From contig NZ_BCXB01000003.1 in assembly GCF_001894885.1 (NCBI RefSeq), forward strand, positions 186,001-250,000: DNA of 64,000 bases, written 5' to 3'. The stretch comes from Rhodococcus marinonascens NBRC 14363. Its GTDB lineage: Bacteria; Actinomycetota; Actinomycetes; Mycobacteriales; Mycobacteriaceae. The notes under the pieces are model-generated. The model had not been told where the DNA came from. It did no database searches and worked only from the letters and a program-made list of their open reading frames with translations. Shown here piece by piece: positions 11,004 through 56,501 of the stretch; positions within the stretch are counted from its first letter, which is position 1, and every line of letters starts with the position of its first letter. A program made the position numbers and the translations under genes.

Positions 11004-11020
11004 GTGTTACACATAGTGTC
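11004..11020 (+). promoter_or_regulatory. Operator at the TetR-glpD operon start
   Basis: GTGTTACACATAGTG (11004-11018) contains the overlapping dyads GTGT-T-ACAC and ACAC-ATA-GTGT. Fourteen of fifteen bases recur at 56475-56489, in front of the AGPS-like oxidase operon. The site overlaps the proposed TetR start codon (GTG 11016), consistent with autorepression of a leaderless or short-leader transcript. The likely ligand-responsive regulator is the TetR protein encoded here. Confidence 0.65.
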
Positions 11021-11654
11021 TATTCGTAATCCTTTGTCGCGCGATCCTTTGCCGCGCGAAGGCAGCCCACCGAGCGTCGAAGACGTCATTCTCGATGCCG
11101 CACGTTCGTGCATCCTAGATTTCGGGCTTCGCCGAACCACGCTGGCCGAGGTTGCTCGTCGCGCGGGCGTCAGCAGGCCGACCGTATACCGGCGGTGGGC
11201 AGACACCAGGGCGGTGGTCGCCGACCTCATGACGCGCGAGATCACAGCCGTGATCCCCACTTTTTCGGCGGAGGAATCGATTCATCGCCAACTGGTGGAT
11301 GCGGTGATCCACGTGTCCACCAACGTGCGCGAGCACTCGCTGTTCGTGAAGATTCTGCATTCGGATCGGGAACTGTTCACCCCCTACATCCTCGAGCGGC
11401 TGGGTACCAGCCAGAAGGCGATCATCGACCAGGTCGCGCTCGCGGTGTCGGCGGGTCAGCAGCAGGGATCGATACGCTCCGGCGACAGTCGCCATATCGC
11501 CGTCATGGTGCTGCTCATGGCACAGTCCGCGGTGCAGTCCGCGGCGATGGTGGCGAAGGAACTTCCCGGCCAATCGCTGACGCAGCAAGTCCGCAATGCC
11601 ATCGGGGCCTACCTGGCACCCGACAACCACACGCCAACTCGAGGAGACCGGTGA
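11016..11654 (+). CDS. TetR family transcriptional regulator of the glpD operon
   Basis: A regulator of about 212 residues, with a TetR DNA-binding domain at about residues 20-70 (ILDAARSCILDFG, then TTLAEVARRAGVSRPTVYRR) and a helical ligand domain after it. The frame is open to 10932, but GTG 11016 gives a normal-length N-terminus. The stop overlaps the glpD start by four bases (GTGA). It corresponds to Rv2250c, which in M. tuberculosis sits between glpD1 and a divergent flavoprotein gene. The ligand is unknown; an acyl-CoA or glycerolipid intermediate is plausible from context. Confidence 0.85.
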   Translation: MSIRNPLSRDPLPREGSPPSVEDVILDAARSCILDFGLRRTTLAEVARRAGVSRPTVYRRWADTRAVVADLMTREITAVIPTFSAEESIHRQLVDAVIHVSTNVREHSLFVKILHSDRELFTPYILERLGTSQKAIIDQVALAVSAGQQQGSIRSGDSRHIAVMVLLMAQSAVQSAAMVAKELPGQSLTQQVRNAIGAYLAPDNHTPTRGDR

Positions 11655-13195
11655 ACAACTCGAACACTCCATCCGTCAAAAGCTCGTCGGCGCTCAACGC
11701 CGCCCGCAGAGCGCGCGAACTCGACCAGTTGTCCAACGGCGAAACAGTGGATCTGCTGGTGATCGGTGGAGGAATCACCGGCGTCGGCGTTGCACTCGAC
11801 GCGGCGTCCCGCGGGCTGACTGTCGTACTCGCCGAAAAGAGAGACCTCGCCTTCGGAACCAGCCGGTGGAGTTCGAAACTTGCCCACGGCGGACTGCGTT
11901 ACCTGGCGACGGGCAACGTCGGCATCGCCCGGGAGAGCGCGGTCGAACGCGGAATCCTGATGACCCGCACGGCCCCGCACCTCGTCCGCGCGCTGCCGCA
12001 ACTCGTCCCGGTCCTCGATTCCACCACTGCATTCAGCAAGTACCTCGTCCGCGCGGGCTTTTTGGCCGGTGACGTCCTCCGTGCGAGCGCCCGCACGTCG
12101 TCCTCGGTACTGCCGAGGTCTCGAACCGTCCGGTCCGACCGGGTGATCGAACTCGCGCCCGCGGTCCGGCGTGACGGGCTGCGCGGTGGATTGGTGGCGT
12201 TCGACGGTCAATTGATCGACGATGCGAGGCTCGTCGTGGCCATCGCTCGTACTGCCGCTTTGCACGGTGCGAAGGTTCTCACCCGCACCGGTGCCTATGA
12301 TGTCACCGGGACGTCGGCAACGCTTCGCGACGAACTGACCGGCTCGGAGATGCGGATCAAGGCGCGTGCGGTGGTCAATGCGGCGGGTGTGTGGGCGGGC
12401 GAGGTCGATCCCGAGATCGCGCTCCGACCGAGCCGTGGAACTCATTTGGTACTCCCTGCCGAGAGGCTCGGCAACCCCACCGCAGCCCTTACGGTCCCCA
12501 TCCCTGGTGAGACCAATCGTTTCGTCTTCGCGCTGCCCGCGCAGTTGGGCCGCGTGTATCTGGGACTTACCGACGAGGCGGCTCCGGGGCCCGTTCCGGA
12601 CGTCCCGACCGCCTCGGACGAGGAGATCGACTTTCTTCTCGCCACAGTCAACACCGCGCTCGAGGTGCCGCTCGAGCGCTCGGACATTCTCGGCACCTTC
12701 GCGGGGTTGCGCCCGTTGCTCGATACCGGCGACGGGTCCACCGCGGACCTGTCCCGCAACCATGCGATTCTGCGTTCCGGCACTGGTCTCGTCAGCGTGG
12801 TCGGTGGCAAGCTGACCACCTACCGCAAGATGGCGGAGGACGCCGTCGACGCGGCTGTCGAGGGGTCGGGACTGGAAGCAGGCCCGTGCCGGACCCGGAC
12901 ACTCCCGCTGGTCGGCGCCGCGGCACCCGAGGCGCTGCGGAATGTGGCTGCGCCGCCGACGCTGCTGGCTCGCTACGGAACGGAAGCGGCGTTGCTGGCC
13001 GCCGCCGCCCCAGACCTTCTGGCGCCGATCGCAGAGGGACTGGATGTGAGCCGTGCCGAGTTCGAGTTCGCGGTGACGCACGAAGGTGCGCTCGACGTCG
13101 ACGACGTGCTCGACCGGCGCACGCGGATCGGGCTCGTCCCCCCCGACCGTGAGCGCGCCTCGAGCGCTGCCGCATCGGTGTTCGAGATGGGGTGA
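11651..13195 (+). CDS. glpD: FAD-dependent glycerol-3-phosphate dehydrogenase
   Basis: A 514-residue membrane-associated flavoenzyme that oxidises sn-glycerol-3-phosphate to dihydroxyacetone phosphate and feeds electrons to quinone. The FAD-binding motif VIGGGITGVGVALDA is near residues 37-51. The GlpD signatures GTSRWSSKLAHGGLRYL (about 75-91) and VVGGKLTTYRKMAEDAV (about 382) are intact, and a C-terminal helical domain follows. It is translationally coupled to the TetR gene (4-bp overlap). It corresponds to glpD1 (Rv2249c) by context. Confidence 0.93.
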   Translation: MNNSNTPSVKSSSALNAARRARELDQLSNGETVDLLVIGGGITGVGVALDAASRGLTVVLAEKRDLAFGTSRWSSKLAHGGLRYLATGNVGIARESAVERGILMTRTAPHLVRALPQLVPVLDSTTAFSKYLVRAGFLAGDVLRASARTSSSVLPRSRTVRSDRVIELAPAVRRDGLRGGLVAFDGQLIDDARLVVAIARTAALHGAKVLTRTGAYDVTGTSATLRDELTGSEMRIKARAVVNAAGVWAGEVDPEIALRPSRGTHLVLPAERLGNPTAALTVPIPGETNRFVFALPAQLGRVYLGLTDEAAPGPVPDVPTASDEEIDFLLATVNTALEVPLERSDILGTFAGLRPLLDTGDGSTADLSRNHAILRSGTGLVSVVGGKLTTYRKMAEDAVDAAVEGSGLEAGPCRTRTLPLVGAAAPEALRNVAAPPTLLARYGTEAALLAAAAPDLLAPIAEGLDVSRAEFEFAVTHEGALDVDDVLDRRTRIGLVPPDRERASSAAASVFEMG

Positions 13196-13215
13196 CGCCG
13201 ACCGTGTGACACCCT

Positions 13216-14370
13216 GTGGTCGTGCGAGTCGCCGTCGTTGCCGGGCCTGATCCCGGACATGCCTTTCCTGCCATTGCGTTGTGCCTTGCGTTCAGCAAGG
13301 CCGGAGATGATTCGGTCCTGTTCACAGGTGCGCGCTGGGTCGAGGCGGCCCGGGCAGCCGGGGTTCCCGCCGAGTTGTTGAGGGGTCTGGCGCCCCGCCC
13401 GACGGACGACGACCTCGATGCCGGTGCCCGTATTCATGCACGGGCCGCGCACATCTCCACCGAGATGCTGCCCGACCTCCGTGCGATAGGACCGGACCTC
13501 GTGGTCTCCGACATCCTCACCGCGGGCGGAGGGATGGCTGCTGAACGGCTCAGGATTCCATGGGTCGAATTGTCCCCGCACCCGTTGTATTCGGCGTCGA
13601 AGGGATTGCCGCCCATCGGAAGTGGATTGGCTCCAGGGGAAGGTGTTCGCGGCCGACTCCGGGATACGCTGATGCGGGCGGCGACGGCACGGTCGATCCG
13701 GATGGGCGTGCGGCAACGCTCCGAGGCGCGCGTCGGTGTCGGACTGCCGGCGAATGACCCCGGGCCGGTGTGCCGGTTGATCGCGACACTTCCGGCGCTC
13801 GAGGTGCCGAGGCCTGACTGGCCTGCCGAAGCGCATGTGGTGGGGCCCTTGCTATGGGAGCCCACGAATGAGGTACTCGCGCCCCCGGACGGCGTCGATC
13901 CGCTGGTCATGGTCGCGCCCTCGACGGCGTTCACAGGCGCGGAGGGGATGCTCGAGACGACTTTGTCCGGGCTCGACGGGGCAGGTGTCCGGGTGATCGC
14001 GTCCGTTCTCGACGGAGCGTCGACGCCTGTTCCGCCGTGGGCGCGAGCAGGTCTCGGGCGTCAGGACGTGATGCTGCGCGAAGCCTCTGTAGTTGTCTGC
14101 GGCGGTGGGCACGGCATGTTGGCCAAGGCGTTGCTGGCAGGCGTTCCGGCCGTGGTGATTCCCGGCGGCGGCGACCAGTGGGAACTCGCGAACCGGGCCG
14201 CACGGCAGGGGAGCGCCGTGGTGGTGCGTCCCCCGAGCGCGGAGGCGCTCCGCACGGCGGTCGAACAGGTGCTTGCCGACGGCGCATATGCCGAGGCGGC
14301 GCAGCGGGCCGCGCGGACCGTCGAGAACGTCACAGATCCGGTGGACGTGTGCCGCGGTGCGCTGCGGTGA
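13216..14370 (+). CDS. UGT-like glycosyltransferase (GT-B fold)
   Basis: A 384-residue two-Rossmann-domain glycosyltransferase of the MGT/UGT type. It opens with the nucleotide-fold strand VAVVAGPDPGHAFPAIAL. A C-terminal donor-binding signature GGGHGMLAKALLAGVPAVVIP followed by GGDQWELANR spans about residues 297-327. This is the homologue, by position, of Rv2739c. The sugar and acceptor are unknown. The GTG at 13216 is used, and GTG 13222 is an equally good start. It sits 20 bp after glpD and just before the DUF3046 gene, possibly in the same transcript. Confidence 0.85.
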   Translation: MVVRVAVVAGPDPGHAFPAIALCLAFSKAGDDSVLFTGARWVEAARAAGVPAELLRGLAPRPTDDDLDAGARIHARAAHISTEMLPDLRAIGPDLVVSDILTAGGGMAAERLRIPWVELSPHPLYSASKGLPPIGSGLAPGEGVRGRLRDTLMRAATARSIRMGVRQRSEARVGVGLPANDPGPVCRLIATLPALEVPRPDWPAEAHVVGPLLWEPTNEVLAPPDGVDPLVMVAPSTAFTGAEGMLETTLSGLDGAGVRVIASVLDGASTPVPPWARAGLGRQDVMLREASVVVCGGGHGMLAKALLAGVPAVVIPGGGDQWELANRAARQGSAVVVRPPSAEALRTAVEQVLADGAYAEAAQRAARTVENVTDPVDVCRGALR

Positions 14371-14403
14371 GAGTGCAGTTCGCGGTTCGGCTACCGTGGG
14401 CGT

Positions 14404-14598
14404 GTGCGACTGACCGAATTTCATCAACTCATCCGCGAGGAGTTCGGGCAGATGCGTGGTGATGCACTCCTCATCGACCACGTGCTGCTCAATCTGGGTG
14501 GGAAAACCGCAGCCCAAGCCATCGAGGACGGCCGGGAGCCTCGTGAGGTCTGGCGAGAACTCTGCATCGAGTTCGATGTCCCGCCGCTGCGCAGGTAG
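14404..14598 (+). CDS. DUF3046 family small protein
   Basis: A 64-residue soluble protein conserved upstream of recA in actinobacteria (Rv2738c). The DUF3046 pattern RLTEFHQLIREEFG followed by LGGKTAAQAIEDG and PREVWRELC is clear. The function is unknown. The GTG at 14404 is the start. Its last codons and stop lie inside the first copy of a 17-bp tandem repeat that runs on into the recA leader. Confidence 0.88.
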   Translation: MRLTEFHQLIREEFGQMRGDALLIDHVLLNLGGKTAAQAIEDGREPREVWRELCIEFDVPPLRR

Positions 14599-14649
14599 CA
14601 ACACCGCGCAGGTAGCAACACCGCGCAGGGAGCAACACCGCGCAGGGAG
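14589..14649 (+). repeat. 17-bp tandem repeat between DUF3046 and recA
   Basis: Units GCGCAGGTAGCAACACC begin at 14589, 14606 and 14623, with a partial fourth at 14640. Units 1 and 2 are identical; from unit 3 GGTAG becomes GGGAG. The DUF3046 stop codon TAG lies in unit 1. This looks like a replication-slippage expansion. Confidence 0.9.
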
Positions 14650-14681
14650 AATTCGGCGTGTCGAACGGCCCGATACACAAA

Positions 14682-14697
14682 TCGAACACATGTTCCC
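14682..14697 (+). promoter_or_regulatory. SOS box (LexA site) of recA
   Basis: GAAC-ACAT-GTTC at 14684-14695 is a perfect match to the actinobacterial LexA consensus GAAC-N4-GTTC, extended to TCGAACACATGTTCCC. It lies about 95 bp upstream of recA. Confidence 0.9.
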
Positions 14698-14728
14698 CTA
14701 TGCTGGTGATGTTCGGTGGTCACGGTTC

Positions 14729-14751
14729 TTGTCGGTACCCGGATCTAACCT
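14729..14751 (+). promoter_or_regulatory. PafBC-type (RecA-NDp) promoter of recA
   Basis: TTGTCGGTA (14729-14737), eight bases, then TAACCT (14746-14751) matches the RecA-independent DNA-damage promoter motif TTGTCRGTG-N8-TAN3T bound by PafBC in mycobacteria, with one mismatch. Transcription would begin about 35 bases before the recA ATG at 14793. Confidence 0.75.
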
Positions 14752-14792
14752 GACTGCAAGATCGCTGATGAGACTCGAGAATGGGGACGACG

Positions 14793-15836
14793 ATGGCACC
14801 ACAGGCACACGATCGTGACAAGGCGCTCGACCTCGCGCTGGCGCAGATCGACAAGAACTTCGGCAAGGGTTCGGTGATGCGCTTGGGCGAAGGTGTGCGT
14901 CAGCCGATCGCTGTCATCCCCACCGGTTCCATCGCGTTGGACGTGGCTCTCGGCATCGGAGGTCTGCCCCGCGGACGCGTCGTTGAGATCTACGGCCCGG
15001 AATCGTCGGGTAAGACCACCGTGGCTCTGCACGCGGTCGCCAACGCTCAGGCGAACGGCGGCATCGCAGCCTTCATCGATGCCGAACACGCCCTCGATCC
15101 CGACTACGCCCAGAAACTCGGCGTCGACACCGATGCCCTGCTGGTGTCGCAGCCTGACACGGGTGAGCAGGCGCTCGAGATCGCCGACATGCTGATCCGG
15201 TCCGGCGCCCTCGATATCCTCGTGATCGACTCGGTAGCCGCTCTCGTCCCGCGCGCCGAGATCGAGGGCGAGATGGGTGACAGCCACGTGGGCCTGCAGG
15301 CGCGGCTGATGAGTCAGGCGCTGCGCAAGATGACCGGTGCCCTCAGTAACACCGGAACCACTGCGATCTTCATCAACCAGTTGCGCGAGAAGATCGGTGT
15401 CATGTTCGGTTCCCCCGAAACCACCACAGGTGGTAAGGCGCTGAAGTTTTATTCGTCTGTGCGCCTGGATGTTCGGCGTATCGAGACCTTGAAGGACGGC
15501 ACCGACGCAGTGGGTAACCGAACGCGTGTCAAGGTGGTCAAGAACAAGGTCGCCCCGCCGTTCAAGCAGGCGGAGTTCGACATTCTCTACGGTCACGGAA
15601 TCAGCAAGGAAGGCTCGCTGATCGACATGGGGGTCGAGCACGGATTCATTCGTAAGTCCGGTTCCTGGTACACCTACGAAGGCGACCAGTTGGGGCAGGG
15701 CAAGGAGAACTCCCGTAAGTTCCTGTTGGAGAACACCGACATCCGGGACGAGATCGAGAAGAAGATCAAGGAAAAGCTCGGAATCGGTGCCGACGTCAGT
15801 GTTGCCACGGATGACGCAGCCCCGGCCGAATTCTAG
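14793..15836 (+). CDS. recA: Recombinase A
   Basis: The strand-exchange ATPase of homologous recombination and co-protease for LexA. The 347-residue protein has Walker [10 protein letters not shown] (residues 68-76), Walker [13 protein letters not shown], the L1 loop [20 protein letters not shown], the L2 region [20 protein letters not shown], and an acidic tail. No intein is present, unlike M. tuberculosis RecA. ATG 14793 is preferred over 14781 because [12 protein letters not shown] aligns with the usual start and GGGGA lies upstream. It is followed ten bases later by recX. Confidence 0.98.
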
Positions 15837-15845
15837 GGTGCAGCC

Positions 15846-16361
15846 GTGCGTCCTACGGGCGGCGGTGGATCGGAGGCGCAGGCGAAGGACTTATGCCTGC
15901 GCCTGCTGACTGATCGCGCTCGAAGTAGAGCGGAACTAGCCGAGCGTTTGGTCCAGAAGGACTACTCGGCAGACGTCATCGACCGCGTCCTTGATCGTCT
16001 GACCGAGGTTGGACTGGTCAACGATGCGGACTTCGCCCTGCAGTGGGTGCATTCGCGGCACACATACTCCGGCAAGGGGAAACGTGCGCTTGCAATGGAA
16101 TTGCGTCGCAAGGGCATCGGCCAAGAAGATGCCGCCGAGGCGCTCGCTCAGATCGACGGCGAAGATGAACGGCAACGTGCCTCGGAATTGGTTGCGAAGA
16201 AGTTGCGCACGATGTCGGTGGACGATCGCGATCGGGCGGTGCGCAGACTGATCTCCATGTTGGCGCGCCGCGGGTTTCCCCAAGGTGTGGCCTTCGAGGT
16301 GGTGAAGGAACAACTCGACCGCGCCGGTGCGGATACCGACGACATGTTCGAGGAGTTGTGA
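15846..16361 (+). CDS. recX: Regulatory protein RecX
   Basis: A 171-residue all-helical protein that caps RecA filaments and modulates RecA activity. It is built of three-helix repeats, with the RecX features RSRAELAERLVQKDY near residue 30, LVNDADFALQWVHSR near 60, and RRKGIGQEDAAEAL. The GTG at 15846 starts ten bases after the recA stop, so it shares the recA transcript and damage control. A strong hairpin terminator follows. Confidence 0.95.
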   Translation: MRPTGGGGSEAQAKDLCLRLLTDRARSRAELAERLVQKDYSADVIDRVLDRLTEVGLVNDADFALQWVHSRHTYSGKGKRALAMELRRKGIGQEDAAEALAQIDGEDERQRASELVAKKLRTMSVDDRDRAVRRLISMLARRGFPQGVAFEVVKEQLDRAGADTDDMFEEL

Positions 16362-16367
16362 CAACGC

Positions 16368-16396
16368 CCGGGCGGTGCTCTACGAGTACCGCCCGG
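16368..16396. terminator. Bidirectional hairpin terminator between recX and gluD
   Basis: CCGGGCGGTGCTC (16368-16380), loop TAC, and GAGTACCGCCCGG (16384-16396) give a 13-bp stem with one G-U pair. It sits between the convergent recX and gluD genes and could stop both transcripts. Confidence 0.82.
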
Positions 16397-16412
16397 ACAC
16401 TTCGTCTGGTTG

Positions 16413-17309
16413 CTATCGCTTGTCGGTGATGTCCATGCCCGGAACCGACACGTCGGCAAGGTCGGGACGATCTCCTCCCGCTGCTCCGGCCTTCTTGCCT
16501 GCTCGTAGTCGCTTCTCCACCCGGGTGGCCACCACGGTGAGTGTCGAGTTGATGATGATCATGATGATCGCCACGACGATCAGGGACGGCAGGTAGTTGC
16601 CGTAGAACGCGCCGAGTTGCTGACCCGACCGCACCACCTCGACGTAACCGATCAGGTAGCCGAGGGCGGAGTCCTTCAACGCCACCACCATCTGCGAGAT
16701 GATCGCGGGAAGCATGGCCGTGACTGCCTGCGGCAGCAAGATGGTCCGCATGACCTGGCTCTTGCGCATGCCCAGCGCCATCGCGGCCTCACTCTGCCCC
16801 TTCGGGAGCGAGTTGATGCCGGCCCGCACGATCTCTGCGATTACCGCGCCGTTGTAGAGCGTGAGGCTCACGATGACTGCGGCGAGCGCAAGGTACGTCG
16901 ACTTGAAGACTTCGTACTCTGCGAACAGTTGGTACGAAAAGATCATGAGAATCAGCACTGGGATGGCGCGGAATACTTCGACGAACGTCCCGGCGATCCA
17001 CCGTACCGGTCGGTGATCCGACAACCTGCCGACGCCGAGGATCGCGCCCAAGATCAGCGCGAGCAGAATCGACGCGGCCGCCGCGATGAGGGTGCCGCGG
17101 ATACCGGGGAGGAGATAGGTGGTCCACGAGGTGGACTCGACGAACGGACTCCACTTCTCCGACGTCAACTGGCCCTTGTCGTCGAGTGCCGCGTAGACGA
17201 GGTAGCCGACGCCCACCATGAGGGCGACGACGGCGACGGAAGCCAAGCGGTAGAGCCTCTTGGCCTTGGGTCCAGGCACGTCATAGAGGACGGTGGCCGA
17301 ATTGCTCAT
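16413..17309 (-). CDS. gluD: Glutamate ABC transporter permease GluD
   Basis: A 298-residue inner-membrane permease of the polar-amino-acid (HisMQ) family. The EAA loop lies in [23 protein letters not shown] (near residues 160-182), where the ATPase docks. An extra N-terminal helix and a charged C-terminal tail of about 35 residues are present, as in C. glutamicum GluD. It overlaps gluC by four bases in the operon gluA-gluB-gluC-gluD. Confidence 0.92.
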
Positions 17310-17986
17310 CGTGCAACCTCGAATCGCTTGCTCAGGTACCCGAACAGAAGCCCCAACGGCATGGTGAGGACCACGAACCCGAGTGCGAAGATTCCACCGA
17401 CGACGAAGATGGCGGCCTCGTTCTCGATCATTTCCTTCATCAGGAGGGAGGCCTCCGCGACGCCGATCACCGAGGCGATCGTCGTGTTCTTGGTCAGGGC
17501 GATGAGAACACTACCGAGGGGGGCGGTGACCGCACGGAAGGCCTGCGGCAGCACGATCAGCCGCAGATTCTGGGAGAACGTGAGCCCCAATGACCGGCCC
17601 GCCTCCGCCTGACCGACGTGCACGGTGTTGATACCGGCCCGGAGCGACTCGCACACGAACGCCGCGGTGTAGATGCTGAGTGCGAGCACGGCGAGCCGGA
17701 AGTTGTTCTGCTCGAAGAAGGTCGGCGACTGTCCGGGGGCGAGTTTGACGCCCAACGTCTGGAAGAGCCCGAACGAGCAGAAGATGACGATCAGCGTCAG
17801 CGGAGTGTTGCGGACGATGGTCACGTACCCGGCTCCGATCCCACGTGCGATAGGGATCGGCGACACTTGCATGGCAGCCAGGATGGTGCCGAGAACCAGG
17901 GCACCGACAGCGGAGAATGCGGTGAGTTGCACCGTCGTCCAGAACGCGTCGATCAACTGATCGCCGTACTTGCTCAGTAGGTCCAC
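17306..17986 (-). CDS. gluC: Glutamate ABC transporter permease GluC
   Basis: A 226-residue HisMQ-type permease with about five membrane helices and the EAA-type motif [18 protein letters not shown] (near residues 111-128) followed by GRSLGLTF. It pairs with GluD to form the membrane channel of the glutamate importer. It is preceded by a 90-bp gap after gluB that holds a stem-loop, and overlaps gluD downstream. Confidence 0.92.
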
Positions 17987-18025
17987 TTACCGTCTCCCCA
18001 GATCACTGGTGGTTCGTCTCGAGCC

Positions 18026-18064
18026 GGGCCGGGCGGCGCCCGCAGGGGAACCGTCCGACCCGGA
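18026..18064 (-). terminator. Intercistronic stem-loop between gluB and gluC
   Basis: An inner hairpin CGGGC-GGC-GCCCG at 18030-18042 lies within weaker outer CCGGG/CCCGG pairing in the 90-bp gap. Such structures often protect or partly terminate the message after the binding-protein gene, giving more GluB than permease. Confidence 0.5.
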
Positions 18065-18076
18065 TGCGTGAGTTGC

Positions 18077-18910: not shown

Positions 18911-19010
18911 ACAGATCCTCCAATTGAAATACGGGTGTGGAGTGTCTAGCACAGTCGACCGCAGAGCACACGGCCGTCGACCGACAGGACACAGGATGGC
19001 GCTCTAACGG

Positions 19011-19793: not shown

Positions 19794-19891
19794 AATCGAT
19801 GACCTTAGGTGTTGACGGCGGAGATGATCTACCTCGGCACCCAAAATTTCTTCATCAGCACCGAGAATTCGTGCCGATGCAGTGAAAATTG

Positions 19892-45718: not shown

Positions 45719-45780
45719 AGACTAACCAACCTTGTAGATCGGCCTCTGCGTCGCCCATCCCTGTGCCAGAATCGACCGTC

Positions 45781-45810: not shown

Positions 45811-45821
45811 GCTGGGAGAGT

Positions 45822-47250: not shown

Positions 47251-47256
47251 ATGAGT

Positions 47257-48749: not shown

Positions 48750-48766
48750 CCTTCTAGGCTAGGGGT

Positions 48767-49483
48767 ATGGACGCCCCGCGAGACATGGACGCACGACACA
48801 GCGGTTCGAGTATCGACCTCGACACCGCCGTCGAAGTCACCAGAACCGGTGATATCTGGATCTTCCGCGGACTATCTCCGGCCGACAGGGCCATTCAGAC
48901 GCTGACCAACAGTCCGGTCAATCACGTAGGAATGTCGGTGGTGCTCGAGGATCTGCCGCCGCTGATGTGGCATGCAGAACTTGGACATTCGTTGCAGGAC
49001 ATGTGGACCGGTCGATTCCAGCGAGGTGTGCAACTCCACGATCTCCGCGCCGCGGTCCAGGTGTGGGGCGCGCGCTACGGGCAACGGGGATGGCTTCGGC
49101 AACTCGCCGACCCGGCCACCCCGCAGCAGGAAGACGCGCTACTGCGCATCATCGCACGACTCGACGGCACGCCCTTCCCGTCTACCGCGAAGCTTGCGTC
49201 ACGCTGGTTCAGAGGCCGTCTGCCCCGTATCGGTCGTCGGCAGGGGGATGCTGTGGGTCTCGAAAGCGCCTACTGCGCCGAGGTGGCCGCGCAGACGTAC
49301 GAGGCGATGGGGCTGATCACCGGGCGACACCGCGCCAGCTGGTTCGACCCTGGAAAGTTCTGGAGCGGGGACAAGCTCCCACTGGCGCCCGGCGTGACAC
49401 TCGGCCGCGAGATCGAAGTGACCCTGGGCGAAGCCGACTTTGCCGCGGGGCGGAAGCAGCGTCCATCCTCAGAGGTTGTGTGA
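48767..49483 (+). CDS. NlpC/P60-superfamily-like conserved protein (permuted papain fold)
   Basis: A 238-residue protein that looks like a permuted NlpC/P60 (YiiX/LRAT-type) cysteine-peptidase-fold domain. GDIWIFRGLSP opens the domain, NSPVNHVGMSVVLED supplies the His, and AYCAEVAAQTYEAMGL supplies the Cys helix (Cys near residue 168). The role is unknown, and activity could be hydrolase or acyltransferase. ATG 48767 follows AGGGG. Its 3' end overlaps the convergent phzF-like gene by 15 bp. Confidence 0.72.
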   Translation: MDAPRDMDARHSGSSIDLDTAVEVTRTGDIWIFRGLSPADRAIQTLTNSPVNHVGMSVVLEDLPPLMWHAELGHSLQDMWTGRFQRGVQLHDLRAAVQVWGARYGQRGWLRQLADPATPQQEDALLRIIARLDGTPFPSTAKLASRWFRGRLPRIGRRQGDAVGLESAYCAEVAAQTYEAMGLITGRHRASWFDPGKFWSGDKLPLAPGVTLGREIEVTLGEADFAAGRKQRPSSEVV

Positions 49484-50149
49484 CTTCTCGGGGCGGACGA
49501 GGCCGCCGACCTCGATCCACCCGGCCGAATCGTAGGTGGTGTGCAGCTGGGATCCGCGCCCCTGCGTGATGAGGAGGGCGTGGCGTAGGTGGTCGGTGAT
49601 GTGGACAGCAGCCGCCCCGGTCGCCTCGTCCTCCTTGATTCCTATGTCCGGAGCAAACATTCGTGATCGGATGGAATGCTCGACCTTGTCCGTCCATGCC
49701 CACAGATAGTGATGGCCCGGACCGAACTTCTTCGGATCGGCAGTCTCCACGTCGCGCACGCTGTTCATCGGGTACAGCGAGAACTCGGGCGCCCATTCGG
49801 CCTTTGCGCGCACCCAAGTGATGGCTCCGGATCGTCGGGTCGCGACGGAACCTGCAGGAACCTCCAGCGTCCGGACAGGGGTGCCGCGCTCGTGCAACCA
49901 CCAGGACAGCCCGACGGTGGGATGGCCGGCGAAGGGTAACTCGGTGGTGGGAGTGAAGATCTGGGCGCCTGCGTGCTCGGAGCCGGAGGCGGGAAGTTCG
50001 ACGAAGATCGTCTCGCTGTACCCCAGTTTCGCGGCGACCGCCTGCCGGTTCTTCGCAGGAACGGTGGAGGAGTCGACGATCCCGAGCGGATTGCCGTGGT
50101 GTCCCTTTTCGTCGGTGAACACCCGGACGACGTCTACGTGGATGGGCAT
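49469..50149 (-). CDS. PhzF family isomerase-like protein
   Basis: A 226-residue PhzF/diaminopimelate-epimerase-fold protein, the positional match of Rv2716. The N-terminal VDVVRVFTDEKGHHGNPLGIV and SETIFVELP carry the PhzF pattern with the catalytic-type Glu. A second half-barrel has DEATGAAAVHITDHL. It is shorter than typical PhzF (about 260-300 residues). The substrate is unknown. It is downstream of ahpCD on the same strand but separated from it by a strong terminator. Confidence 0.85.
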   Translation of the reverse strand: MPIHVDVVRVFTDEKGHHGNPLGIVDSSTVPAKNRQAVAAKLGYSETIFVELPASGSEHAGAQIFTPTTELPFAGHPTVGLSWWLHERGTPVRTLEVPAGSVATRRSGAITWVRAKAEWAPEFSLYPMNSVRDVETADPKKFGPGHHYLWAWTDKVEHSIRSRMFAPDIGIKEDEATGAAAVHITDHLRHALLITQGRGSQLHTTYDSAGWIEVGGLVRPEKSHNL

Positions 50150-50175
50150 TACCGCACCTTATCGCCTCCGTCGCC

Positions 50176-50219
50176 GAACGGCCCCAGCGTGCGGTGAATG
50201 CCGCACTCTGGGGCCGTTC
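50176..50219 (-). terminator. Strong terminator after ahpCD
   Basis: GAACGGCCCCAG (50176-50187) pairs with CTGGGGCCGTTC (50208-50219), and after one C/T mismatch GTGCGG pairs with CCGCAC around the loop TGAATG. The stem totals 18 bp with one mismatch, between the ahpD stop and the phzF-like start. Confidence 0.85.
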
Positions 50220-50238
50220 CGGTGACACTGGTTCCGTG

Positions 50239-50778
50239 TCAGACGCCCGCGGTGGCCAGAGTCTCGCTGGCTTCCACAGCCTGCGCGACGCCGGCGACGA
50301 TGGAGCCGGCACGGATCGCTTCGAAGATCACTTCACGGTCGATACCCTCCTGGCGGAGGGTGTTCTCGTGGGCCTCGAGGCAGTGGTTGCAGCCGTTGAT
50401 CGCGGACACCGCGAGCGACCACAACTCGAAGTCGGCCTTGTCCACGCCCGGGTTGCCGATGATGTTCATCCGCAGTCCCGCGCGCAGGTCGTCGTACTTA
50501 CCGCCCAGGTAGCCCTTGGTGCGGTAGAAGACGTTGTTCATGCCCATGATGGATGCGGCACCGAGTGCGGCGTCGTAGGCCTCGGCCGATAGGGTGTCGG
50601 CGGCCTCTTCGGCGATCTGCTTCAACGTGGTCGCCGACTTGGTGGCGGCGGCGGTTGCGAGCAGCGTGCCCCACAACTGTTGCTCGTTCAGGACGGTGCT
50701 GCGCGCAATGGAACTCAGGTTGAGCTTGAGGTCCTTGGCGTACTCGGGCAGGGAATTCTTGAGATTCTCGACAGTCAC
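50239..50778 (-). CDS. ahpD: Alkyl hydroperoxide reductase AhpD
   Basis: A 179-residue helical peroxidase-system protein that reduces AhpC and has weak peroxidase activity. The redox pair is Cys130 and Cys133 in GCNHCLEAH, with the proton-relay residues ELW and His137 as in M. tuberculosis AhpD. It is separated from ahpC by three bases, forming an ahpCD operon with a strong terminator, divergent from oxyR. Confidence 0.96.
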
Positions 50779-50781
50779 AGC

Positions 50782-51369
50782 TCAGACGCTCGCATTCAGG
50801 AGTTCGCCTGCGTTGATCGTCGGGTCACCCTTCTTCCAGTTGCAGGCGCACAACTCGTCGGACTGCAGGGCGTCGAGGACACGCAACACCTCGTCGACGT
50901 TGCGGCCCACCGAACCGGCCGTGACGGAGACGAACTGGACCTCGTTGTTGGGGTCGACGATGAACGTCGCGCGGTCGGCGACACCGTCGGCGTTGAGGAC
51001 TCCAGTGGCCTCGGCCAGCTCACGCTTGAGGTCCGAGAGGATCGGGAAGGGGAGGGTCTTCAGTTCCTCGTGCTGTGCACGCCACTGGAAGTGGACGAAC
51101 TCGTTGTCGACCGAGGCTCCGAGCACCTGGGCGTCGCGGTCGGCGAACTCGTCGTTCAGCTTGCCGAACGCGGCGATCTCAGTGGGGCACACGAACGTGA
51201 AGTCCTTGGGCCAGAAGAACACTATGCGCCACTTGCCTGCGTGATCGTCGCTGGTGATCGTGGTGAAGTAGTCGTCGGGCTGCTGGGCGTCGACCTTGGA
51301 GAGGTCGCCACCGATGACGGCCTTCAGGTTGTATGCGGGAAACTGGTCGCCGATGGTGAGCAGAGCCAT
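50782..51369 (-). CDS. ahpC: Alkyl hydroperoxide reductase AhpC (peroxiredoxin)
   Basis: A 195-residue 2-Cys peroxiredoxin that reduces organic peroxides and peroxynitrite. The peroxidatic Cys61 lies in DFTFVCPTEI. Cys174 and Cys176 (ELCACNW) are the pair seen in actinobacterial AhpC, which uses AhpD as reductant. ATG 51369 follows AGGAG; the frame is open upstream to 51399. It is divergent from oxyR. Confidence 0.97.
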   Translation of the reverse strand: MALLTIGDQFPAYNLKAVIGGDLSKVDAQQPDDYFTTITSDDHAGKWRIVFFWPKDFTFVCPTEIAAFGKLNDEFADRDAQVLGASVDNEFVHFQWRAQHEELKTLPFPILSDLKRELAEATGVLNADGVADRATFIVDPNNEVQFVSVTAGSVGRNVDEVLRVLDALQSDELCACNWKKGDPTINAGELLNASV

Positions 51370-51477
51370 ATCTCGTTCTCCTACTTGTCTTGTGAACATA
51401 GCGAGCGCCGTGCAACCACACCCGAGGTGTCGGTTGAGGGTTTAGACACCGAAAGCGGGTCATGGCACTTCGTCGAG

Positions 51478-51523
51478 CCAAGCTGTCGACCCAAGCTGCC
51501 GACCCAAGCTGCCGACCCAAGCG
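51478..51523 (+). repeat. 13-bp tandem repeat in the ahpC-oxyR gap
   Basis: CCAAGCTG(T/C)CGAC is repeated at 51478, 51491 and 51504, with a partial copy at 51517. It lies between the ahpC start and the oxyR promoter region, so copy number would change spacing between the divergent promoters. Confidence 0.88.
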
Positions 51524-51577
51524 TTCTGGTGTGGCCTCATTCTGCACAAGCGTTGCCAAAAGGCAAAGTCGATAGAT

Positions 51578-51597
51578 ATGCCTACACTGATAGGTAT
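51578..51597. promoter_or_regulatory. Candidate OxyR-binding dyad at the oxyR start
   Basis: ATGCCTA (51578-51584), six bases, and TAGGTAT (51591-51597) form an inverted repeat with one mismatch, overlapping the oxyR ATG at 51596. A LysR-type regulator binding here would control itself and the divergent ahpC. Confidence 0.5.
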
Positions 51598-52528
51598 GGC
51601 TGATCGGAGTTATCAACCCACGCTGTCACAGCTGCGTGCGTTCGTCGCGGTGGCCGAATACCGCCATTTCGGTACGGCAGCAGTACAATTGAGTGTGAGC
51701 CAACCCACACTGTCGCAGTCGCTCGCGACGCTGGAGAACGGGCTCGGCGTGCAACTCATCGAGCGCAGCACCAGGCGCGTCCTCGTCACGACGGCTGGAG
51801 AACGGCTCCTCGGTCAGGCCAAGTTCATCCTCGACGCCGCGGTCTGTTTCGTCGCAACCGCGGCGGGTGCGGGAGACCAACTGGCCGGACTCCTGCGGAT
51901 CGGCCTGATCCCCACCGTGGCTCCGTACGTCCTGCCGGCCTTGCTGTCGGAGCTACGCAAGGAGATGCCCGCCCTGGAGCCTCAGATCATAGAGGACCAG
52001 ACGGTCCGCCTGCTGGAGTCCTTGCGAGCCGGTGCGATCGACGTCGCGGTGCTGGCCCTGCCGTCGGAGGCCCCCGGCCTCATCGAGGTTTCCGTGTACA
52101 AGGAGGATTTCGTGGTCGTTCTGCCGAGGCATCATGCGCTCGCGGGCCGGGACGACCTAGCGCTCGACGTGCTCGGCGAACTGCCCTTACTGCTCCTCGA
52201 CGAGGGGCACTGTCTGCGTGATCAAACGTTGGATCTGTGCCGTTCGGGCGAGGCGCACCCGCTGTCCGGGGACACCCGCGCGACGTCGCTGGCGACCGTC
52301 GTGCAGTGTGTGGCAGGGGGGCTGGGTGTGACGTTGGTCCCGGACTCGGCCGTCGGGGTCGAGACTCGCCGCGGTGATCTCTCCACTGCACGGTTCGCCG
52401 AGCCCGCACCGGGGCGGACGATCGGCTTGGTCTTCCGGGCGTCGAGCGGTCGTGCCGAAGGGTACCGGCAGTTGGCCTCGCTGCTGCGGAGTGCGGCGCC
52501 GGCAGGTGTTGTGGCTGTCGAGGGCTGA
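51596..52528 (+). CDS. oxyR: Hydrogen peroxide sensor OxyR (LysR family)
   Basis: A LysR-type activator of about 310 residues. The winged HTH covers 1-60 (TLSQLRAFVAVAEYRHFGTAA, then SVSQPTLSQSLATLE). The redox cysteines Cys206 (DEGHCLRDQ) and Cys215 (LDLC) match the E. coli OxyR disulfide pair. ATG 51596 (MADRSYQPTL) matches the usual mycobacterial start; ATG 51578 is also in frame. It is divergent from ahpCD, the classical OxyR target, and oxyR is intact, unlike in M. tuberculosis. Confidence 0.95.
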   Translation: MADRSYQPTLSQLRAFVAVAEYRHFGTAAVQLSVSQPTLSQSLATLENGLGVQLIERSTRRVLVTTAGERLLGQAKFILDAAVCFVATAAGAGDQLAGLLRIGLIPTVAPYVLPALLSELRKEMPALEPQIIEDQTVRLLESLRAGAIDVAVLALPSEAPGLIEVSVYKEDFVVVLPRHHALAGRDDLALDVLGELPLLLLDEGHCLRDQTLDLCRSGEAHPLSGDTRATSLATVVQCVAGGLGVTLVPDSAVGVETRRGDLSTARFAEPAPGRTIGLVFRASSGRAEGYRQLASLLRSAAPAGVVAVEG

Positions 52529-52550
52529 CCGACCGAGCACCGCCTCGAGA

Positions 52551-53309
52551 TCAGCGGCGTTTGCGTCTGCCAGGTTTAGACCCGGACCCGGACCCGGACC
52601 TGCCGCCGCTGCGGCGCGGATCCTGCTTTCGCGGCGCGGATCTCGCCTCTGTCTGCTTGCGGGGCTTGGGCGTCTTGGTCTTCGGTGTCTCATGCGGGCT
52701 GCGGCCGCGTGAACTGTTCGCGGTCCGCCCGCGAACGATTCCGATGAACTCGTCGATGAGATCGGTGGTGCGGTCCTCCACCCACGCCAGAGCGATACGG
52801 GACTCGGGTGCGCCGTCGACGGGGCGATAGGTGAGGTCCTTGCGGTGATTCAGGCGAGCAAGGGACATCGGTACCACGACGACGCCGACGCCGGCGGCGA
52901 CGAGTTCGATCGCGTCACTGGTCGAGGCGGGGCGGTCCAAAGTGCGACGGCCCGGGAGGTGGTCCCACACGAGTGGGGTGTCCACCGGGTCGAGGACGAG
53001 TTCGTCGGCAAGATCAGCGAGGGCGATTCCCTCAGCAGCGGTGAACACGTGGTCACTGGGAACGACGACGACGGGTACCTCCGCGTACAGCGGGATGACG
53101 CTCAGTCCGTCGCGGTCGACCGGCAGGCGTAGGAGCGCCGCGTCGGCGCGGTCCTGACGAAGCGCCGCCGTAGCGTCGGCGGCATTGCCTGCCAGCAGTT
53201 CGAGCGGGGTGTCTGTGACGCGCTCGCCCCAGATCCGGACCCACTTCGCGGGTGTGACACCGGGGACGTACGTGAGCCGGAACGGTCGGGAGTCAGTCGC
53301 CTCGGTCAC
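52551..53309 (-). CDS. LysR-type substrate-binding domain protein lacking the HTH
   Basis: A 252-residue protein with a LysR effector-binding domain (about residues 8-195: FRLTYVPGVTPAKWVRIWGER, LELLAGNAADATAALRQDRAD, VAAGVGVVVVPMSLARL) but no N-terminal winged helix. The last 55 residues are Lys/Arg/Pro/Ser-rich (ending RSGSGSGSKPGRRKRR) and may bind nucleic acid instead. It is convergent with oxyR and divergent (73 bp) from the DUF5997 gene. The function is unknown. Confidence 0.8.
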   Translation of the reverse strand: MTEATDSRPFRLTYVPGVTPAKWVRIWGERVTDTPLELLAGNAADATAALRQDRADAALLRLPVDRDGLSVIPLYAEVPVVVVPSDHVFTAAEGIALADLADELVLDPVDTPLVWDHLPGRRTLDRPASTSDAIELVAAGVGVVVVPMSLARLNHRKDLTYRPVDGAPESRIALAWVEDRTTDLIDEFIGIVRGRTANSSRGRSPHETPKTKTPKPRKQTEARSAPRKQDPRRSGGRSGSGSGSKPGRRKRR

Positions 53310-53382
53310 CCGATCAGGCTACTCGCCGGGTCTCGAGAGCCGCCGGTGCGGCCGACCGTCGCCTGCTCGTTACCCTTAACGC

Positions 53383-53814
53383 ATGACGTCGCAGAAGACC
53401 CCCCAGACAATGAAGCCGGCTACCGCCGCCAAGAAGCTGGGCGTGTACCTCCAGGGCACCCCCGCGGAGTTCCAGTCCGGTGTGGTCTCGCGCGACGAAC
53501 TGAACGAATGGCAGACGGATCCGCCGGAGTGGCTCGCTACTCTGCGCCGTGAGGGCCCACACCCGCGTTCCGTCGTCGCCACCAAGCTCGGTGTCTCCAT
53601 CGCCGGTCTCGCCCGCGGTGGTGTGGCCGAGGCCCTCACCACCGCGCAGATCGACGCACTCCTCGCCGACCAGCCTGACTGGCTCGTCGGCGAGCGCGCC
53701 AACCTCCTCGAGGTCCACAAGGAGGAGAAACGGATTCGCGAGCAGCAGGCACTCAAGAGTGAGCAGTCCAACCGCACGCCGCGTAACGCGGGGCCGTTCA
53801 AGCCGTCGACCTAG
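53383..53814 (+). CDS. DUF5997 family protein
   Basis: A 143-residue soluble protein. It opens with KPATAAKKLGVYLQGTPAEF, then DELNEWQTDPPEWLATLRREGPHPR, VVATKLGVSIAGLARGGV and a charged C-terminus. I place it in DUF5997 from memory; the function is unknown. The helix-turn-helix-like stretch (ATKLGVSIAGLARGG) is suggestive only. It is divergent from the HTH-less LysR gene, and the two may be co-regulated. Confidence 0.7.
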   Translation: MTSQKTPQTMKPATAAKKLGVYLQGTPAEFQSGVVSRDELNEWQTDPPEWLATLRREGPHPRSVVATKLGVSIAGLARGGVAEALTTAQIDALLADQPDWLVGERANLLEVHKEEKRIREQQALKSEQSNRTPRNAGPFKPST

Positions 53815-53926
53815 TGTGCCCTCCTGCTCGTGACCCGACCGAGGCGTGGGGCGGACCTTGCGCACTTGGTTCGTCAAGGGTTGGCCGGGGTGCTCGCCAC
53901 GCGCTGGCCGCCCCGCGGCCGGTGAC

Positions 53927-54841
53927 TCAGGTCGGCCCGCGACTGAGGATGTGCAGCGCTGATGGGACCGCCTCGATCGTCACCGGTAGGGGCCCGACCC
54001 TGTCGCCGTCCGCGTAGGCGGGGATGTCGTCGCACTGCAACCGCACACTGCGCGAACGGTAGGTCTGCACGTCGGGCAGCTCCACATGCGTGCCCTTGTA
54101 GACCCGCGGGAACAGCCGAATCAGCCTCGATCGACGACCGTACTCGACGACGGTGACATCGAGCAGACCGTCGGTTCTGTCCGCGTTCGGGCAGATCTGC
54201 ATCCCGCCACCGTACGAGCGGCCGTTGCCGACGGCGACGAGCGTGGCGTCGACCTTCACCGTCTCCTCGTCCAGTTCGATGCGGTGGCGAAGGGGTTTGA
54301 CCCGCGAGAGTTCCACGAGCATCGCCAGGTTGTACCGCATCGGCCCCTTCGGCCACGACATCCGGTTGGCCCGATCCGCAACCAGCGAATCGAAACCGCT
54401 GGCAATGATGGTGCCCGCCCACACGACCGAACCATCGGTGAGCGTGATCCGGGCGAGGTCGGATTCCTGCACCTCACCGTCGGCGATCACATCCGCCGCA
54501 GCGGCGGGGTCATCGACGGGGATACCGAACTCACGCGCATGGTCGTTGCCCGTCCCTGCCGGGATCAGCCCGATCGGCACCCCGGACTGTGCGGCCGCCT
54601 GCAACCCGATGCTGATCGCACCGTCACCGCCCACCACGACGAGCGCGTCGGTGCCCTCATCGATGGCCCGCCGGGCCAGTGTGCGGGCATGATCGGCGTC
54701 CGTCCCGATGATTTCGGTGACCGCGACTCCCCGCTCACGCAGGCGCGCGACCGCCTTGCGACCGGCGGTCGGTCCGTTGCCGTGCCCGGCCAGCGGGTTG
54801 ATCAGGACGGTGACCTTCTCGATCGCCTTCTGTTCGCTCAT
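53927..54841 (-). CDS. dagK: Diacylglycerol kinase family lipid kinase
   Basis: A 304-residue kinase of the DagK/sphingosine-kinase fold that phosphorylates diacylglycerol or a related lipid. VTVLINPLAGHG opens the catalytic domain, GGDG at residues 71-74 binds ATP, and PAGTGNDHARE follows at about 92. It matches Rv2252, implicated in phosphatidylinositol mannoside synthesis. ATG 54841 overlaps the stop of the FAD oxidase gene (ATGA), so the two are co-translated. Confidence 0.92.
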   Translation of the reverse strand: MSEQKAIEKVTVLINPLAGHGNGPTAGRKAVARLRERGVAVTEIIGTDADHARTLARRAIDEGTDALVVVGGDGAISIGLQAAAQSGVPIGLIPAGTGNDHAREFGIPVDDPAAAADVIADGEVQESDLARITLTDGSVVWAGTIIASGFDSLVADRANRMSWPKGPMRYNLAMLVELSRVKPLRHRIELDEETVKVDATLVAVGNGRSYGGGMQICPNADRTDGLLDVTVVEYGRRSRLIRLFPRVYKGTHVELPDVQTYRSRSVRLQCDDIPAYADGDRVGPLPVTIEAVPSALHILSRGPT

Positions 54842-56466
54842 GGAATCAACTTGCCCGGGTTGAGGATTCCCGCAGGATCGACGGCGTTCTTGACCGCACG
54901 CAGGACCGTGACGCCCAGGTCGCCGATCTCGTCCCGCATCCACGGGCGGTGATCGACGCCGACCGCATGGTGGTGGGTGATCGTTCCGCCGGCGGCGATG
55001 ATCGCGTCACCGGCGGCGGTCTTGGCCTTGCTCCACTGGGCGATCGGGTCGTCGTTCTGCGCGCACACGATGGTGAAGTACAGCGACGCACCCGTCGCGT
55101 ACGTGTGCGAGATGTGGCACAACACCAGCGGCGGGGTCCCCTGCCCGGACAACGACTCGGTCAACGCCGTCGTGACCGCGGCACGCAACGTCGCGAGGTT
55201 GCCCCAGCGAGTTGCCGTTTCGAGGGTCTCGCACAGCACACCCGCATCGAGCAGGGCGTCGCGCAGGTAGGGGGCGTCGTAACGGCCGTGTTCCCAACCG
55301 TTCCCGGGTTCCTCGCCGAGCGAGGTCGCACCGTTGGCCTGCAGGACGGTGCGGGCCTCGGCCACCCGCTCCGCGGTGTGCTCAGCGGTGCCCTCGAACG
55401 TGGTGATCGCCAGGCAGCCGCCGGTGACAGCCTCCTCGCCGATCTTGTCGTGGGTGGCGAGGTTGACGCCCGTCTCGGCCTCGTCGGACAGTCGCAGCAC
55501 GGTCGGCACCGCGCCTTCCTGTCGCAGCGCGCGCAGTGCTGCCGCGCCGGTCTCGAAATCGGGGAAGCGCCACCCCTCGCGGACAACGGACTCCGGGACC
55601 GGGTGCACCTGCACGCGGACCTGGGTGATGACGCCGAGGGTTCCCTCCGATCCGACGAACAACTCGCCGAGGTCCGGACCCGCGGCGGACGCCGGTGCAC
55701 GCCCGGTGTCGAGAATGCCTGCGGGGGTCACCACCCGCAGACCCTGCACCATGTCTTCGAACCGGCCGTAACCTGCGGAAGCCTGGCCCGAGGAGCGGGT
55801 TGATGCGAATCCGCCGATGGTCGCGAACATGAAACTCTGCGGGAAATGCCCCAGCGAGAAGCCGCGTGCGCCGAGTAGTTCCTCGACTCTGGGACCGCGC
55901 AGGCCCGCGCCCAGGGTCGCGATCCCGGAGTCGATGTCGAGGTCGATCAGCGAATCGAACCGCCGTAGGTCCAGCGAGAGGACCGCGTCGAACTTCTCAC
56001 GCACCGGGTCGAGTCCGCCCACGGCGCTGGTACCGCCGCCGAACGGCACGACGGCGATCGAGTTGTCGGCGCAGTATCCGAGGATCTCGGCGACTTCGTC
56101 CTCGGTACCCGGGGTGACCACGACGTCGGGGGCGTTCTGCGTTTCGGTGCTGCGACGACGCAGCATGTCGAGCGTGCTCTTACCGCCGGCCCTCAGTAGT
56201 CGATCGTCGTGTTCGGTGCTGCAGAATTGCTCGCCGACAATCCCGGCGAGCGCCGCAAGTTGCCCTTCGGATACCGCGCTCGGAGCCAGGACCACGTTTG
56301 CTGCTACGCGGTCGGGAGTCTCCCGAATCGTGACCCCGAGGGCTTGCCGTAGCAGGCCCTTGATGCCGTCCGAGAGAACCTTGCGCTTCTCCGGTGCGCC
56401 CCAGGCATCCCACTTCATCGGGGGTGCGGTCAGGACGGCTTGATCTTCGGATCGCTCATTGCTCAT
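54838..56466 (-). CDS. FAD-binding oxidase, alkyldihydroxyacetonephosphate synthase-like
   Basis: A 542-residue VAO/PCMH-family flavoprotein resembling eukaryotic AGPS, which makes the ether bond of ether lipids. The FAD domain shows VVTPGTEDEVAEILGYCADN and VPFGGGTSAVGG (about 115-150). The C-terminus has the AGPS-type His cluster THHHAVGVDHRPW (about 495) and ends DPAGILNPGKL. It matches Rv2251. It is first gene of an operon with dagK and is preceded by the same operator as the TetR-glpD operon. Lactate- or glycolate-oxidase-type activity is the main alternative. Confidence 0.85.
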   Translation of the reverse strand: MSNERSEDQAVLTAPPMKWDAWGAPEKRKVLSDGIKGLLRQALGVTIRETPDRVAANVVLAPSAVSEGQLAALAGIVGEQFCSTEHDDRLLRAGGKSTLDMLRRRSTETQNAPDVVVTPGTEDEVAEILGYCADNSIAVVPFGGGTSAVGGLDPVREKFDAVLSLDLRRFDSLIDLDIDSGIATLGAGLRGPRVEELLGARGFSLGHFPQSFMFATIGGFASTRSSGQASAGYGRFEDMVQGLRVVTPAGILDTGRAPASAAGPDLGELFVGSEGTLGVITQVRVQVHPVPESVVREGWRFPDFETGAAALRALRQEGAVPTVLRLSDEAETGVNLATHDKIGEEAVTGGCLAITTFEGTAEHTAERVAEARTVLQANGATSLGEEPGNGWEHGRYDAPYLRDALLDAGVLCETLETATRWGNLATLRAAVTTALTESLSGQGTPPLVLCHISHTYATGASLYFTIVCAQNDDPIAQWSKAKTAAGDAIIAAGGTITHHHAVGVDHRPWMRDEIGDLGVTVLRAVKNAVDPAGILNPGKLIP

Positions 56467-56474
56467 GCGTTGTA

Positions 56475-56501
56475 GTGTTACACATCGTGCAAGAGTGTAA
56501 C
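56475..56501 (-). promoter_or_regulatory. Operator before the AGPS-like/dagK operon
   Basis: GTTACAC (56477-56483), 11 bases, and GTGTAAC (56495-56501) form a perfect 7-bp inverted repeat, 10-35 bases upstream of the start at 56466. GTGTTACACATCGTG (56475-56489) repeats 14 of 15 bases of the site before the TetR-glpD operon (11004-11018). The TetR protein encoded there is the likely binder. Confidence 0.68.

Follow-up and report, generated by a model that had tools for sequence, protein, structure and literature searches.

Gene content of the two operons

We analyzed a window of 64,000 nucleotides from Rhodococcus marinonascens NBRC 14363 that carries a tetR-glpD pair and, on the other strand, genes for an AGPS-like FAD enzyme and a DagK lipid kinase (Table 1). 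The tetR stop region overlaps the glpD start by GTGA and the AGPS stop overlaps the dagK start by ATGA, and each pair is therefore read as an operon. The likely dagK start, ATG 54841, lies in this second overlap; the open reading frame list has an upstream GTG, 54943. For tetR the likely start is GTG 11016, inside the operator described below, and the nearest relatives have an ATG at the same place. At the loci compared, glpD adjoins tetR in 30 of 30.

Table 1. Genes, operators and duplicated sequence in the window
Feature	Position	Strand	Supporting match
tetR, TetR-family regulator, 212 aa	11016..11654	+	Pfam TetR_N 1e-12
glpD, glycerol-3-phosphate dehydrogenase (FAD)	11651..13195	+	Pfam DAO, DAO_C
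AGPS-like FAD enzyme (Rv2251-type), 542 aa	54838..56466	-	Pfam FAD_binding_4, FAD-oxidase_C
dagK, lipid kinase, YegS/Rv2252/BmrU family	53927..54841	-	Pfam DAGK_cat, YegS_C
tetR operator, TTACA (11007-11011)-N14-GTAA (11026-11029)	11007..11029	+	R1 match E 1.9e-8 at C3:196994-197032
AGPS operator, perfect dyad GTTACAC-N11-GTGTAAC	56477..56501		R1 model match E 6.6e-5
Block duplicated from contig C12, operator included	53916..56604	-	2691-column alignment, 97.1% identity
Remnant 3' end of C12-type MFS gene	56501..56611	-	36-aa tblastn piece, 94%

The helix-turn-helix of TetR scores 48.1 bits against TetR_N, above the curated Pfam cut-off of 24, which places the protein in the TetR family; 36 of 61 genomes have a match to it at E 1e-20. 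Its AlphaFold model (pLDDT 87.4) has the TetR-type helical fold, with nine helices and no strand, and its best PDB fold matches are TetR-type regulators such as MexL, RutR, SmeT and FadR. Over the 50 fold matches listed, TM-scores to the query were 0.46-0.64 at 13-22% identity, and structure and fold search together describe a generic TetR fold with no safe ligand assignment. The best NCBIfam equivalog was FasR, an activator of fatty acid synthesis, which we rejected at 27.6 bits against a cut-off of 330; the NCBIfam equivalog and fold searches returned no characterised orthologue.

The solved structures closest to the AGPS-like protein are the alkyl-DHAP synthases 2uuu (E 2.9e-91) and 4bby (1.1e-72), which match over both domains; the next structure class follows at 1.6e-36. 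Active-site residues of AGPS are His-His-His, Tyr and Arg, and the window protein aligns with 4bby at the HHH, TY, RD and RL.D positions. Judged by sequence, the enzyme is a putative alkyl-DHAP synthase, for which an ether lipid would be a candidate product. Its only homologues in this genome at E 1e-12 are its own duplicate and two distant proteins (28% and 34% identity). DagK exceeds two family cut-offs, TIGR00147 (137.4 vs 118.65) and PRK11914 (516.1 vs 302).

A shared operator with few genomic occurrences

The initial annotation of this DNA reported two similar 15-mers, at the tetR-glpD start and before the AGPS-dagK operon, the second extended to a perfect GTTACAC-N11-GTGTAAC dyad. Both 15-mers lie where it placed them, GTGTTACACATAGTG at 11004-11018 and GTGTTACACATCGTG at 56475-56489, and the dyad was likewise recovered (Table 1). 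Because GTG 11016 is the likeliest tetR start, this start codon falls inside the first 15-mer; the AGPS start codon lies 10 bp from the perfect dyad. We distinguish three arms across related operators: an outer arm A (GTTAC), arm B (GTGTTACA in most Rhodococcus, TTGACAT in Nocardia) and arm C (GTAAC). The tetR site, too, has a second, imperfect arm that the annotation overlooked, with its GTAA lying within tetR codons, and a further outer arm, GTTAC, at 10998-11002. The two window operators are identical at 25 of 44 aligned positions, and their 8-bp B/C symmetry is 5/8 at the tetR site, where the dyad is imperfect, and 7/8 at the AGPS site.

With up to two mismatches, the 15-mer matches the window only at these two positions, against an expectation of 0.15. 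That the two might be alike by chance draws on the one shuffled window in 100 that held two or more matches; conservation across genera and a held-out motif scan, both described below, rule this out, and its probability is negligible.

We built a sequence-only motif model, R1, from 30 operators exclusive of this genome (G000) and G007; E-values of models of this type are rough. In the genome of the window, held out from the model, R1 found three sites, the tetR operator and two AGPS operators (1.9e-8, 6.6e-5 and 6.6e-5), with the next match at 0.73. The genome-wide scan that the annotation had proposed as a check thus returned no other convincing site, and the shared sequence is confined to three places, as a regulon would have it. 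A fourth TTACA-N14-GTAA occurrence (C12:29764) was set aside; it reads as lying inside coding sequence, in a frame that is not among the closed open reading frames listed.

Ten other genomes, eight of them represented in R1 exactly or near-identically and two held out (G007 and G002, in addition to G000), yielded the expected sites together with weaker extras. The extra matches were one before an amidase gene in G003 (0.011) and one in G011 (0.145); a further line in G003, at 0.113, is the AGPS site of that genome on the opposite strand. G007's AGPS sites are weak matches, at 8.0e-4 and 0.036, and the extra match in G003 outscores the second of them. At that amidase gene (C1:19000; L174, ~1502-2963), a dyad GTTACAT-N11-ATGTAAC overlaps an in-frame ATG, and the gene is a possible extra member of the regulon. 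Another weak R1 match lies at C14:276755 in G021.

We extended the scan to 201 genomes of the family under stricter filters, by which one of the three G007 sites was lost. A site at E <= 0.01 was present in 94 genomes, 15 in the genus and 79 outside it. Within the genus there was one site in each of three genomes in which the two operons are adjacent, two in each of ten in which they are split, and three in G000 and G021. The 79 genomes of other genera have one site each, which is upstream of AGPS in 71, within 134 nt of a tetR match in 75 (a count over 109 of the 146 tetR-matching genomes) and beside tetR, AGPS or both in 78. In an incomplete genome, G065, without a tetR or AGPS match, the site is at the start of a 235-aa membrane-protein-like frame with no Pfam match (L184, near 5011). 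In seven g9 genomes AGPS is elsewhere, and in two of these (L182 and L183) the site lies between tetR-glpD and dagK; AGPS is absent from the operon in these two loci, and one 52-53% identical is encoded elsewhere.

These distributions bear on whether control of both operons, by way of the operator, belongs to a regulator other than the adjacent TetR. Four of the 79 genomes have the site and no tetR match at E 1e-35, as such a regulator would allow, and one of the four (G127) shows tetR by tblastn. Conversely, R1 finds no site in 56 of the 146 genomes in which tetR has a match at 1e-35 (for example in g44 and g6), which also counts toward such a regulator. Some of these genomes may carry the Nocardia form of the operator, on which R1 was not trained, or tetR-like paralogues; two g6 genomes hold a second tetR match. 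Against a different regulator stand the close association of site and tetR in 75 of 79 genomes and the retention of the site by tetR when AGPS leaves, and we regard this alternative as very unlikely.

Conservation of the operator across genera

An operator of the form T(T/G)AC-N15-GTAA, at fixed spacing, precedes tetR in 73 of 80 named loci: 42 have TTAC and 31, in Nocardia and Antrihabitans, have TGAC. All 70 loci showing glpD are included, and three of those counted (L101, L118 and L131) did not show it; the seven loci lacking the operator are tetR-like genes without glpD. In background sequence the TTAC form occurred zero times in 1.23 Mb and the TGAC form once in 0.45 Mb. Within the genus, a script located the operator before tetR at 29 of 30 loci, and at the thirtieth (L033, missed through a position filter) it was found by eye. 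The operator also precedes AGPS in all 30 genus loci, 26 of which belong to split genomes and have a site not shared with tetR. The motif, on whose presence in relatives the initial annotation had made its proposal depend, is therefore conserved well beyond this species.

One ancestral divergent locus, split once

The four gene types are adjacent in most related bacteria that we compared, and they are separated in one Rhodococcus branch. AGPS is divergent to tetR in five of the 30 genus loci (L021 and L034-L037) and in 63 of the 80 named loci. Some divergent genomes, L021 among them, pack the operator and both start sites, the AGPS start codon and the start of tetR, into ~20-35 bp; in others tetR starts further from the operator. 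In a glpD tree of 68 rows, which omits L033, L094 (contig cut), loci without glpD and all but five of L115-L151, the split requires a single change, uniting 32 rows (SH-aLRT 96, quick method). Some rows from the named and other sets look like the same species, and counts over related genomes are non-independent. The tree alone gives no direction; we take the change to run from adjacent to separated because the adjacent order is found in other genera and families. The comparison of gene order thus points to a divergent dagK-AGPS/tetR-glpD ancestor and one split branch in Rhodococcus. Split species include R. jostii, R. opacus, R. koreensis, R. tibetensis, R. qingshengii and R. globerulus, and a split particular to this genome is ruled out by the single branch.

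The neighborhood of tetR retains traces of the earlier arrangement. In the 13 adjacent named loci in which a PIG-L gene was found, dagK-AGPS separates it from tetR, placing it a few kb upstream of that gene; in split loci the PIG-L gene is next to tetR in eight of eight named and 21 of 24 other cases, G000, G007 and G019 being the exceptions. AGPS has moved to several places: beside an MFS gene in the opacus clade (11 of 11 loci, L040-L050), beside a mycothiol-S-transferase/DinB-like gene in one erythropolis-clade locus (L054) and elsewhere in G027 (L051). In the separated genomes compared, the same operator is on both halves, at 26 AGPS loci and 32 tetR loci. A full operator on both sides, overlapping in ancestral sequence, would indicate copying followed by loss, not a plain break. 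Together, these comparisons support one ancestral divergent locus that is separated here, with the operator kept on both halves.

The AGPS-dagK operon in the window is an extra copy

The perfect 25-mer dyad has a second genomic occurrence, overlooked in the initial annotation, at C12:133614-133638, before a near-identical AGPS-dagK operon; the copied block there is ~2.7 kb long (6053-8741 in locus L005). In C12 an intact MFS transporter gene adjoins the operator, and in the window just its last codons are left, with the stop codon of this remnant abutting the AGPS operator. Because the MFS gene is intact in C12 and truncated in the window, we take C12 as the parental place. Short tandem units of the CGGTGCGGTCGGTGACACTGGACAG type end right beside the duplicated block in C12 (L005, ~5939-6062). 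The window operon is not a broken-off half; it is a 97% copy of the C12 operon with the tail of its MFS neighbor. Since it is an extra copy, the 45 kb between the window operons, which the annotation had treated as the distance of a split, does not measure one. Its broader claim, a locus broken in two with the regulatory link kept, is borne out by the comparative evidence for the branch as a whole and fails as a description of an event specific to this genome.

Among 28 genus genomes, two AGPS copies at E 1e-100 occur only in this one and in G007, whose second copy adjoins the same helicase as the window copy, ~44 kb from the G007 tetR. This diverged G007 copy keeps the operator arms and has a changed spacer. 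Over 117 differing columns, which extend slightly beyond the block ends, the window copy agrees with the G007 helicase copy and C12 with the G007 MFS copy at 18 sites, and the opposite holds at five. This pattern fits an older duplication followed by gene conversion in G000, which the patchwork of differences between the two copies suggests.

Two further species, R. xishaensis (G163) and R. spongiicola (G151), retain the native AGPS next to tetR and carry a second one beside the helicase (L177 and L178). The helicase-locus proteins are 87-89% identical to the window protein and fall inside the G000/G007 clade of an AGPS tree (quick method; six-row clade 99, inner fork 81), and this lineage probably acquired its second AGPS-dagK copy by horizontal transfer. 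The operator there reads TCAC...GCAA or TCAC...GAAA, with both arms lost.

Divergence of the operator copies

We compared distinct sites of the TTAC form at glpD loci, a set without L033 and the 31 Nocardia-type sites. Column 10, counted without the cut-contig class (L094), has an A wherever the site fronts AGPS (34 of 34 divergent sites, 17 of 17 AGPS-only sites) but in just one of 17 TetR-only sites. At 7 bp from the AGPS start codon, it is a candidate for the last T of a -10 element serving a leaderless message. The last arm of TetR-only sites, which lies within tetR codons, is CGTAA in 17 of 17. In divergent loci it is CGTAA in 21, TGTAA in five and AGTAA in four of 30 when inside the tetR frame, and TGTAA in all three when outside it; five further loci were left unclassified. 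Mean 8-bp B/C symmetry is 6.88 in AGPS-only, 5.35 in TetR-only and 5.47 in divergent sites; mean 6-bp A/C symmetry is 3.12, 4.47 and 4.71, respectively.

Such divergence is what one would expect from the conversion of one bidirectional control region into a pair of sites that each act in one direction. We give an even chance to the following account: a single bidirectional operator was duplicated when the operons separated and the copies specialized, the tetR copy losing the AGPS promoter base (16 of 17) and the AGPS copy losing the tetR codons and the outer arm and gaining a more perfect 25-bp dyad, so that the symmetry axis passed from A-C to B-C; the operator would then have decayed after the probable transfer to R. 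xishaensis and R. spongiicola. The operator would thereby offer a before-and-after series for a cis-regulatory site: shared, duplicated, specialized and, after probable transfer, decayed.

In place of a repressor site, the same columns could reflect an element that both genes need for promoter function or translation start and have kept since the ancestral divergent promoter. Such an element would fit two features: the distance from AGT (columns 10-12) to the AGPS start codon is 7 bp without exception among the distinct sites, 34 divergent and 17 AGPS-only, and the last arm codes for protein at tetR. It would not explain why the motif has opposite orientations relative to tetR and to AGPS, why AGPS-only sites, in which the last arm no longer codes for TetR, keep both arms and are the more symmetrical, or why the G007 helicase-site copy diverged in its spacer and not in its arms. 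We consider this alternative unlikely. It is highly improbable that the site before AGPS has no function and simply survives from the ancestral intergenic region: its outer arm is degraded (GTTAC in 0 of 17 distinct AGPS-only sequences) and the R. xishaensis and R. spongiicola copies lost arms B and C, yet those arms (TTACA and TGTAA) are invariant in 17 of 17 distinct AGPS-only sites around a much freer spacer.

A model for coordinated regulation

Comparison of genomes establishes a conserved operator in a consistent place and nearly exclusive to these genes, a single split and a duplication. From this we infer copying followed by loss, as well as TetR binding, repression, an effector and the enzyme chemistry. 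Each gene group has its own copy of what looks like the same switch, so one regulator probably still controls both. Taken as a whole, it is highly probable that the TetR encoded at 11016 binds the conserved operator at tetR-glpD and AGPS-dagK and controls both, and that an ancestral single operator underwent one split and later re-copying.

At each operon TetR dimers would occupy the dyad, masking the start and promoter region, and keep expression repressed until an effector binds. We favor repression over activation because of the TetR family assignment and the overlap of the sites with start codons; the protein probably represses its own gene as well and releases the DNA on binding a metabolite of the glycerol-phosphate/lipid branch, our best guess being a compound made or used in the glycerol-3-phosphate/DHAP/acyl-lipid branch. 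With its 25 to 33 bp, the repeat has room for two dimers, as in QacR, for which the accessible text of one source gives a 28 bp site and a tetramer (PMC4482099).

Both operons would have shared the ancestral operator, between divergent start codons that are ~20 bp apart in relatives such as L021. A single ancestor of the opacus and erythropolis clades would have gained a copy of dagK-AGPS elsewhere, together with the operator; loss of the original dagK-AGPS, which stood between the PIG-L gene and tetR, would have left each half with an operator. In the line leading to this genome, AGPS-dagK was copied once more, giving the window copy.

Relation to known systems

In M. tuberculosis we take Rv2249c-Rv2250c and Rv2251-Rv2252 to be divergent, a reading that also follows the gene suffixes. 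The same four gene types occur there and in BCG in the same order as here, according to gene names in the accessible portion of PMC4564863. By gene names, as distinct from sequence, the four are adjacent in M. tuberculosis and separated in R. marinonascens. In the part of the BCG inbR study available, orthologues of all four genes have like table values, 2.11 to 2.28, of a value type that the table portion does not identify (PMC4564863). For the intergenic region of Rv2250c, PMC4482099 gives a MEME motif (E 2.4e-11) that fell below that paper's cut-off and whose logo is absent from the text. In the available portions of other reports, Rv2250c is a late hypoxia responder (PMC12269550) and appears in a table of changed genes (PMC9430723), and glpD1 is discussed in persisters (PMC4866775).

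Within the partly accessible literature on the Rv2249c-Rv2252 genes, glpD/TetR, AGPS, ether lipids and split operons, we found no description of this operator: the kind of system is known, and this operator is not described in the sources searched. The mycobacterial orthologue of the regulator, which adjoins glpD1, is mentioned only in passing in the portions of the literature found, and our analysis supplies it with a concrete, testable operator and target list. It also places the oxidation of glycerol-3-phosphate, an AGPS-like enzyme and a lipid kinase under one putative switch.

TetR-family local repressors of the KstR and EthR type have an autoregulatory operator between divergent genes. 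The TetR described here resembles them in its TetR_N domain, its all-helical fold and an operator that overlaps start regions. Operon fission with co-regulation kept is likewise a general evolutionary pattern, in which separated genes retain a common regulator. What distinguishes the present case is that its halves carry derived copies of one bidirectional operator, which can be compared base by base.
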